From assembly GCF_016901815.1 (NCBI RefSeq), contig NZ_JACSNR010000001.1, forward strand, positions 372,001 to 436,000: 64,000 nt of DNA, read 5' to 3'. Of this stretch, positions 61,767-63,035 are shown piece by piece (within the stretch, counting starts at the first letter, position 1; each line of letters begins with the position of its first letter). Both the position numbers and the translations under genes were made by a program. The notes below the pieces were generated by a model. The model had not been told where the DNA came from. It did not search any database and saw only the letters and a program-made list of their open reading frames with translations. This DNA is from Hydrogenoanaerobacterium saccharovorans. GTDB lineage: Bacteria > Bacillota > Clostridia > Oscillospirales > Ruminococcaceae.

Positions 61767-61800
61767 AAAAAGCCACCTCATCATCTGGGGTGGCTTTTTA
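61767..61800 (-). terminator. Terminator of the orphan RNA
   Basis: AAAAAGCCACC and GGTGGCTTTTT are perfect arms around CCAGATGATGA (minus strand). Confidence 0.88.
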
Positions 61801-62344
61801 TATCGCAAAGTCTACATTCATTTATGATACCTGTCCATGGTCTGACTGACTAATCACTCCAGCCCGACCGGACTGCCTCTTTTTTCATTCGTGGTTTTCC
61901 GTTTTACGATTGGGCTTTTGTTTATGAATCCTTATTATGATCGGATCTTATGCGTTCATCGGACTCACCTTGTATCAAATTGTATCCTTGACTTTTGCTT
62001 CTTTATTATTCACTTGTCCCTAGACCTGAAAACATTGGCACTCTCATACCGTTTTCAAGTTGTCGTGTTCGGCCTGCTCTGCCAGGACATCCCGACTCTC
62101 TGTTATCGGGTCAGCCTGTGTTCTGTCGGACCGCTCCTTCGGCAAGCTATGGTTATCACCTGTGGATTATGGGGAGATCTGTTTCACTCATCTGTTTTTA
62201 CTCCCCGGATATTGCCCGTTGCGGCTATCGGTCAGAACCTGCGGTGCAGGCGTCTGAATGCTTCGGTTCCTCGTACATTGGCGACGCCTCCTATCTTTTG
62301 TTTTCCTTCTGACTCTTGCTCGGAAGCTCTGGTTGCTTTCCTTG
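61767..62344 (-). ncRNA. Large structured orphan RNA candidate, about 578 nt
   Basis: A transcription unit defined by a consensus promoter (62378-62350) and an intrinsic terminator (61800-61767). No long frame is credible on this strand. Many helices can form: GGCGTC/GACGCC (62249-62254 with 62283-62288), GGGGAG/CTCCCC (62171-62176 with 62201-62206), CCCGA/TCGGG (62091-62095 with 62106-62110), and a 10-bp stem at 62024-62033/62051-62060 topped by a second 5-bp stem. It includes AGGAGG before a 17-codon frame (ATG 62278). It lacks the signatures of RNase P, tmRNA and SRP RNA. The size is like the ROOL class of large ornate RNAs, but I cannot confirm membership. Confidence 0.6.
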
Positions 62345-62349
62345 TCTAT

Positions 62350-62378
62350 AATATAGCATTGTTAGTCGATATTGTCAA
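62350..62378 (-). promoter_or_regulatory. Promoter of the orphan RNA
   Basis: TTGACA (62378-62373), 17 bp, TATATT (62355-62350). The -35 and spacing are perfect, so the unit should be strongly transcribed. Confidence 0.8.
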
Positions 62379-62528: not shown

Positions 62529-62831
62529 ATGGACAATACTATGGATTACGGCGCCGATATCCTCACCCTGGTGGATGATGACGGCGTAGAGCATCAGTTT
62601 GAAGTAGCCGATACCATGGACTATGAGGACCATCAGTATATGGCTCTGGTTCCGGTATTCGATGAAGCCGAAGAGCTCCTCGAGGACAGCGGCGAACTGC
62701 TGGTCCTGGAGATGGTAGAGCATGACGGCGAAGGCTACCTGGAGCCCATCGCAGACGAGGATCTCTTCAATACCATCGCTCATATGTTTATGGAGCGTCT
62801 GGAAGAGGAATTCGACTTCGTCGAGGAATAA
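62529..62831 (+). CDS. DUF1292 domain protein
   Basis: 100 residues; AGGAG seven bases before ATG 62529. Acidic, with DILTLVDDDGVEHQFEV and YMALVPVFDEAEE, typical of DUF1292 (YrzB-like), a small Firmicutes family. Function unknown. In Bacillus such genes lie with mltG and Holliday-junction genes; that context is absent here. The probable 6S RNA follows immediately. Confidence 0.9.
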   Translation: MDNTMDYGADILTLVDDDGVEHQFEVADTMDYEDHQYMALVPVFDEAEELLEDSGELLVLEMVEHDGEGYLEPIADEDLFNTIAHMFMERLEEEFDFVEE

Positions 62832-62834
62832 GGC

Positions 62835-63035
62835 CTGCGCGATTCCTGCTGTGTTCGCCTATAAGCTGTTTTATTTAATCCAACATGTTTAATTAGGGAG
62901 CTACGCTCCACCGGCAGACTTCAGACCTCCCGCCCCCAGGGCGGAAGAAGGGAGGACGAAACCGGCGGGCAGGCACCCACCTGTCTTTACGATGGGTTAC
63001 AATCATCAGCATTACGGCACAGCGGGTTTCTTTTA
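62835..63035 (+). ncRNA. ssrS: Probable 6S RNA
   Basis: The segment between DUF1292 and tcdA has no frame but folds into a long rod. A closing stem CCTGCTGTG (62845-62853) pairs with CACAGCGGG (63018-63026), enclosing about 180 nt, the size of 6S RNA. Inside is a weakly paired, AU-rich 5' strand (TTCGCCTATAAGCTGTTTTA) like the promoter-mimic bubble, and an apical stem with CCTCCC/GGGAGG and GCCC/GGGC. A terminator follows. In Bacillus, 6S RNA bsrA also lies just upstream of the tcdA homologue yrvM. 6S RNA sequesters sigma-A RNA polymerase. Exact ends uncertain. Confidence 0.6.

Follow-up and report, generated by a model that had tools for sequence, protein, structure and literature searches.

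Repeated start-stop minigenes in what looks like an undescribed class of orphan RNA beside 6S RNA in gut Clostridia

6S RNA, a mimic of an open promoter, binds RNA polymerase. What is known of minigenes comes from laboratory curiosities, toxins of phages and local elements of mRNAs. In phage lambda bar, axe-txe mg2 and the ycbK mini-ORFs they are two-codon frames with a Shine-Dalgarno sequence ahead and a stop after a single sense codon, and the inhibitory effect of minigenes, as well as re-initiation, is reportedly promoted by two-codon length, a strong Shine-Dalgarno sequence and UAA stops (PMC8708949). These known minigenes occur singly or in pairs within mRNAs or leaders, where they regulate the neighbouring cistron in cis, or they inhibit growth when overexpressed. 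The orphan RNA described here shares the Shine-Dalgarno plus two-codon design but repeats it within a dedicated RNA. Minigenes are known as single elements in mRNAs, but there appears to be no earlier account of an orphan RNA gene that has them in conserved arrays; our search of open-access papers found no description of such an RNA. We know of no large RNA class with this design.

Two further groups of RNAs invite comparison. ROOL, GOLLD, OLE and raiA are long structured orphan RNAs of several hundred nt from Firmicutes and their phages, and ROOL is found in prophages and phages near tRNA islands (PMC12286853). The present class resembles them in kind but is 0.4-1.4 kb long and poorly conserved in sequence between genera, and what it conserves is a translation-start motif in repeated copies. 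Dual-function sRNAs and leader-peptide RNAs also have a short 5′ frame with a strong Shine-Dalgarno sequence, whereas the peptide of the orphan RNA is only weakly conserved, mainly at its N-terminus, there is no regulated downstream gene, and the further frames are minimal.

By the window we mean the whole 64,000-nt stretch of DNA analysed; its relevant features are collected in Table 1. The original prediction placed here a large structured RNA with its own minus-strand promoter and, about 578 nt later, an intrinsic terminator, and a promoter scan, the sequence itself, the minimum free energy (MFE) fold and a hairpin scan confirm this arrangement. The terminator was missed by a simple consensus scan; its stem scores -14.1 kcal/mol in the hairpin scan and also folds in the MFE structure of the whole transcript. 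The RNA is chromosomal and lies between the cyclophilin gene and a pair formed by 6S RNA and a gene that we take to belong to family DUF1292, a setting that is kept in the genus and is not that of a phage or a tRNA island. Rfam covariance models gave no match to the RNA at gathering score, with sub-threshold matches only at E <= 10, and no match to ROOL, GOLLD, OLE or raiA even at E <= 10. RF00013 matches only the neighbouring 6S gene, which excludes 6S RNA as an identity. The RNA is also neither RNase P RNA nor tmRNA, as predicted, because both sit elsewhere in the genome (RNase P at C1:21014-21359, 280 bits; tmRNA at C23:152292-152641). The prediction of a free-standing long structured RNA of undescribed kind is thus supported by its own signals, its fold and the lack of an Rfam match.

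Table 1. Features of the orphan RNA locus in the window
Feature	Position	Strand	Basis
Promoter TTGACA-17-TATATT, TG-extended -10	62350..62378	(-)	Promoter consensus scan, 11/12
Orphan RNA, ~578 nt, transcription start estimated	61767..62344	(-)	Promoter, terminator and fold; syntenic homologues in genus
Shine-Dalgarno AGGAGG of 5′ frame	62287..62292	(-)	GGAGGCG conserved in 3/3 genus genomes
5′ short reading frame MYEEPKHSDACTAGSDR*, 17 codons, ATG 62278 to TAG 62225	62225..62278	(-)	
CACAGGTGATAACC, extended Shine-Dalgarno motif copy without start codon	62151..62164	(-)	Conserved
AAGGAGCGGTCCGACAGAACA, second motif copy without start codon	62119..62139	(-)	Resembles GGTGAGTCCGAAAGACAGT of other loci, by eye
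Two-part stem, covariation-supported in G002	62025..62059	(-)	Comparison with G002
Extended Shine-Dalgarno motif AAGGTGAGTCC	61961..61971	(-)	Sequence search
Minigene ATG AAC GCA TAA (two sense codons)	61948..61959	(-)	Sequence
Intrinsic terminator AAAAAGCCACC...GGTGGCTTTTT	61767..61799	(-)	Sequence, whole-transcript MFE, hairpin scan
Gene taken to be of family DUF1292, transcribed away from RNA, syntenic anchor	62529..62831	(+)	
6S RNA	62840..63032	(+)	Rfam RF00013, 66.2 bits, E 7e-11

It had been claimed that no plausible protein lies between promoter and terminator. This holds for ordinary proteins, but a 17-codon frame conserved in position (ATG 62278) and a three-codon frame at 61959 are both present. 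The first of these, with its AGGAGG, had already been spotted, whereas the repeated start-stop minigenes, visible only by family-wide comparison, had been overlooked. The 5′ frame has 16 codons in the relative G001 and 17 in G002. In the upstream motif copy that has no start codon, CCACAGGTG.T.ACC is invariant in the three genus genomes. The motif that precedes the minigene is part of AGGTGAKTCCRATG, which has a single exact occurrence in the window, and motif and minigene together read AAGGTGAGTCC-G-ATG AAC GCA TAA (61971-61948). At the same site G001 has ATG AGA AGG TAA and G002 has a 23-codon frame instead. With one clear minigene, where other family loci have up to eight, the window RNA is a modest member of its putative class.

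The window transcript is predicted to fold better than chance, with an MFE of -158.7 against -134.8 +/- 7.2 for dinucleotide shuffles (z -3.3), and none of 100 shuffles folded as well. The two-part stem that the original prediction drew at 62024-62060, with a G-U pair keeping the helix, proved real: in G002 it takes an 8+4 bp form in which five pairs have changed on both sides and the U-G pair has become C-G, as predicted. In this comparison 95.8% of cells pair, a share that falls to 46% or less once the partner is slid. The proposed covariation check on homologues gave five compensated pairs between two species in one stem; the stem is absent from G001 and alignable relatives are few. Covariation over the rest of the fold is limited to the two or three sequences that can be aligned, the structure not being alignable beyond the genus. 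The match of the stem at 62025-62059 in G002, with compensated pairs, points to conservation of the predicted structured transcript.

The host is an uncultured gut clostridium of the genus Avimicrobium, which we take to belong to the order Oscillospirales. In the other two genomes of this genus, one being Candidatus Avimicrobium faecavium, a related sequence occupies the corresponding position, and the gene order DUF1292-6S-ThiF-like, with 6S directly after the DUF1292 gene, is conserved in the genus. The genus alignment consists of islands, GGAGGCGTn.CCnATG..CGAnGAACCGAAGCA, CCACAGGTGnTnACC, AAGGTGAGTCCGATG and TAAATGAA....GACTTT, followed by the terminator. Scanning the whole collection for the 5′ motif yielded two members of the genus, Candidatus Avimicrobium faecavium among them, along with two chance matches. 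When 397 genomes of the family were searched with a covariance model of the 5′ domain (R1), no convincing relative turned up outside the genus; two weak extra matches had scores far from credible, and the one that was read, L024, lies in coding-looking sequence.

Similarity having failed, the search beyond the genus relied on synteny and covered 133 related loci, each inspected on the strand opposite to the DUF1292 gene. A strong TTGACA-17-TATAxT promoter lies within ~400 nt of the DUF1292 start in 73 of the 133, and at least 63 combine promoter and motif as in the window, most with a strong terminator 0.4-1.4 kb downstream. 6S RNA follows the DUF1292 gene in the genus and in most of the other related loci tested, an association that is partly built into the sample, the loci having been collected by their DUF1292 neighbour. 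In one genome (G006:C3:1076871 and 1079832) two identically scoring copies of the DUF1292 gene lie 3 kb from each other, which suggests a tandem duplication at this locus.

The RNAs of the family vary greatly in sequence and length and are mostly 30-47% GC. Their hallmark is an extended Shine-Dalgarno motif, AAGGUGAGUCC-R-AUG, present in 1-8 copies per RNA, and the part that stays constant between genera is AAGGTGAGTCC-R-ATG with variants GGnGnnnCC-R-ATG. Within the order the exact 15-mer occurs mainly in this RNA class; outside the order, in a sample of the bacterial class, the exact motif is at chance level, with 2 forward matches vs 2 in reversed controls. One genome of another family of the order (L160) has a compact version of ~300 nt near 6S RNA, with promoter and terminator and with the frames ATG TAC ACG TAA and ATG TAC AGT TAA; it was the motif, and no neighbouring gene, that led to this locus. 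Four motif matches in G479 (L175, L182, L185 and L186) are not this RNA: they are dispersed multi-copy 5′ leaders in which AAGGTGAGTCCRATG and a short frame, MYVATEPVFF..., precede lipoprotein-like genes, the same translation-start motif in a different setting. L162 and L165 were likewise rejected. L163 and L164 (family f13) have a promoter and then AAGGTGAGTCCGATG, at which a 17-codon frame begins (MVDEQYW...); this 5′ frame resembles in type that of the orphan RNA, and the loci are possibly distant relatives of its 5′ part.

The motif copies nearest the 5′ end behave differently from those further in. The 5′-most copies open frames of 14-34 codons in 51 family loci, the acidic beginning of these frames being loosely conserved (MYSDEP, MNSEEPK, MDSxE), and early stops are absent after all 51 copies that lie within the first 230 nt. 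Copies at least 230 nt into the RNA, which we call internal, number 104 in 53 loci and 39 genera, and 81 of them meet an in-frame stop within two sense codons, compared with 15 in the +1 frame and 6 in the +2 frame. For exactly one sense codon the counts are 64 in frame vs 4 and 2. When near-duplicates within a genus are collapsed, early stops are found in 57 of 79 copies in frame vs 13 and 4 in the other frames, and a stricter regular expression gives 55 of 70 vs 15 and 4, with per-genus means of 0.68 vs 0.28 and 0.07, a simple per-genus control and not a correction by full phylogeny. Dinucleotide shuffles of 43 loci contain 81 +/- 8 pairs of Shine-Dalgarno sequence and ATG where the RNAs contain 213, and 14 +/- 4 such pairs with a stop within two codons where the RNAs contain 85. 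These counts show selection on the in-frame stops of the putative minimal frames. The frames start with ATG, GTG or TTG, use 17 different second codons (TAC, AAA, GCA, GAA, GAT and 12 others; some copies have none) and interchange all three stops, UAA being the commonest. Starts, second codons and stops vary but the minimal frame persists, a pattern that is difficult to account for if the frame is not itself read. Across the family these frames have what defines a two-codon minigene, a Shine-Dalgarno sequence, a start, one sense codon and an in-frame stop, and the window copy has two sense codons.

The spacing of the copies is also uneven. Adjacent copies lie 47-56 nt apart in 18 cases, never 60-89 nt apart, and then ~92-139 nt apart, as if the arrays were built from modules of ~50 nt. 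In L138 (genus g98), positions ~60-350 of the transcript form a near-perfect tandem repeat with a unit of ~120 nt, each unit having two minigenes, GGTCCAATG AAC TGT TAA and AGTCCGATG TGC TGA.

Taken as comparative sequence evidence, the anatomy of this apparent RNA class is well supported, and it suggests an RNA built to engage ribosomes and not to make a product. We tentatively favour, at somewhat less than even confidence, an orphan, non-protein-coding RNA whose functional, conserved parts are ribosome-binding sites and which may act as a ribosome decoy or translation brake. 30S subunits would bind the extended Shine-Dalgarno sites, and ribosomes would start at the minigenes, terminate almost at once and could re-start on further frames, with the result that the RNA would carry ribosomes without yielding a product. 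Such an RNA would parallel the neighbouring 6S RNA, as "a 6S for ribosomes": both are stable-type RNAs of the same locus, and the proposed analogy is that of a mimic holding a central machine, but the orphan RNA is unrelated to 6S in sequence and presents ribosome-binding sites instead. We favour this reading because the motif fits extended pairing and the minigene features are those reported to be most inhibitory. In S. aureus, cryo-EM has revealed extended Shine-Dalgarno pairing proximal to the start codon, which the AGGTGAkTCC motif of the orphan RNA resembles (PMC13009471). Several observations count against the decoy or brake. The axe-txe minigene was neither effective nor toxic when supplied in trans (PMC8708949); the motif does not always come with a start codon; the predicted accessibility of the minigene sites is slightly lower than that of the rest of the RNA (0.36 vs 0.40), which speaks against an exposed decoy; and the window RNA has only one clear minigene, replaced in G002 by the 23-codon frame. 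The wider proposal, that a class of RNAs beside 6S in a large family of gut Clostridia idles ribosomes on minigene arrays as a global brake on translation, is more doubtful still.

The main rival to the decoy is local protection of the RNA by ribosomes, which we consider rather unlikely. Here the minigenes would act in cis, parked ribosomes shielding an AU-rich RNA, untranslated elsewhere, from nucleases or Rho while the folded parts do the job. There is precedent in axe-txe and the LEE4 leader, where protection of mRNA in cis by short frames with strong Shine-Dalgarno sequences is proposed or has been shown (PMC8708949), and the low GC content, the spread of copies at a pitch of ~50 nt or more, the better-than-chance fold and the covarying stem all accord with it. 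A folded functional domain should nevertheless be conserved, and outside the motif sequence and length hardly survive from one genus to another.

Some motif copies have no start codon (GGAGTGAGACCACC, GGTGAGTCCGAAAGACAGT), from which it follows that the motif may serve something besides initiation, and this keeps alive a reading in which GGUGAnUCC is the binding site of a protein or another RNA, the AUG merely comes along, and the quick stops only prevent unwanted translation. The CC between Shine-Dalgarno sequence and AUG, which initiation does not need, also points that way. Unwanted starts would simply be lost, however, whereas GTG and TTG replace ATG with frame and stop retained, and we regard a binding site as distinctly unlikely. 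It is less likely again, to the point of being improbable, that the minigenes deplete specific tRNAs through peptidyl-tRNA drop-off as the lambda bar minigenes do: the two-codon length, the strong Shine-Dalgarno sequence and the prevalence of UAA agree with the toxicity rules (PMC8708949), but with second codons so diverse, and absent from some copies, no single tRNA is targeted. Least credible, and already contradicted, are the two identities first put forward, a ROOL-like ornate RNA or a regulatory leader of the cyclophilin gene, which have in their favour a similar length, a structured RNA and a cyclophilin gene downstream on the same strand in the window and some genera, and against them the silence of Rfam, a chromosomal spot beside 6S RNA in many genera where ROOL would be in phages or near tRNAs, a terminator ~175 nt ahead of the cyclophilin ATG (61591), a separate promoter-like site for that gene at 61708-61680 in the promoter scan, and a downstream gene that in other genera is different or in the opposite, convergent orientation.

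If the ribosome decoy or brake is correct, a dedicated RNA of the chromosome, in which the set of minimal frames is the best-conserved property across dozens of genera, would be a new way of putting the ribosome to use without making protein. The division of genes into coding and non-coding misses such cases, two-codon frames being ignored by gene finders and the sequence being too divergent for covariance models. The orphan RNA also offers a concrete and testable case in which an RNA might control ribosome supply, beside the classic RNA that controls the supply of RNA polymerase.
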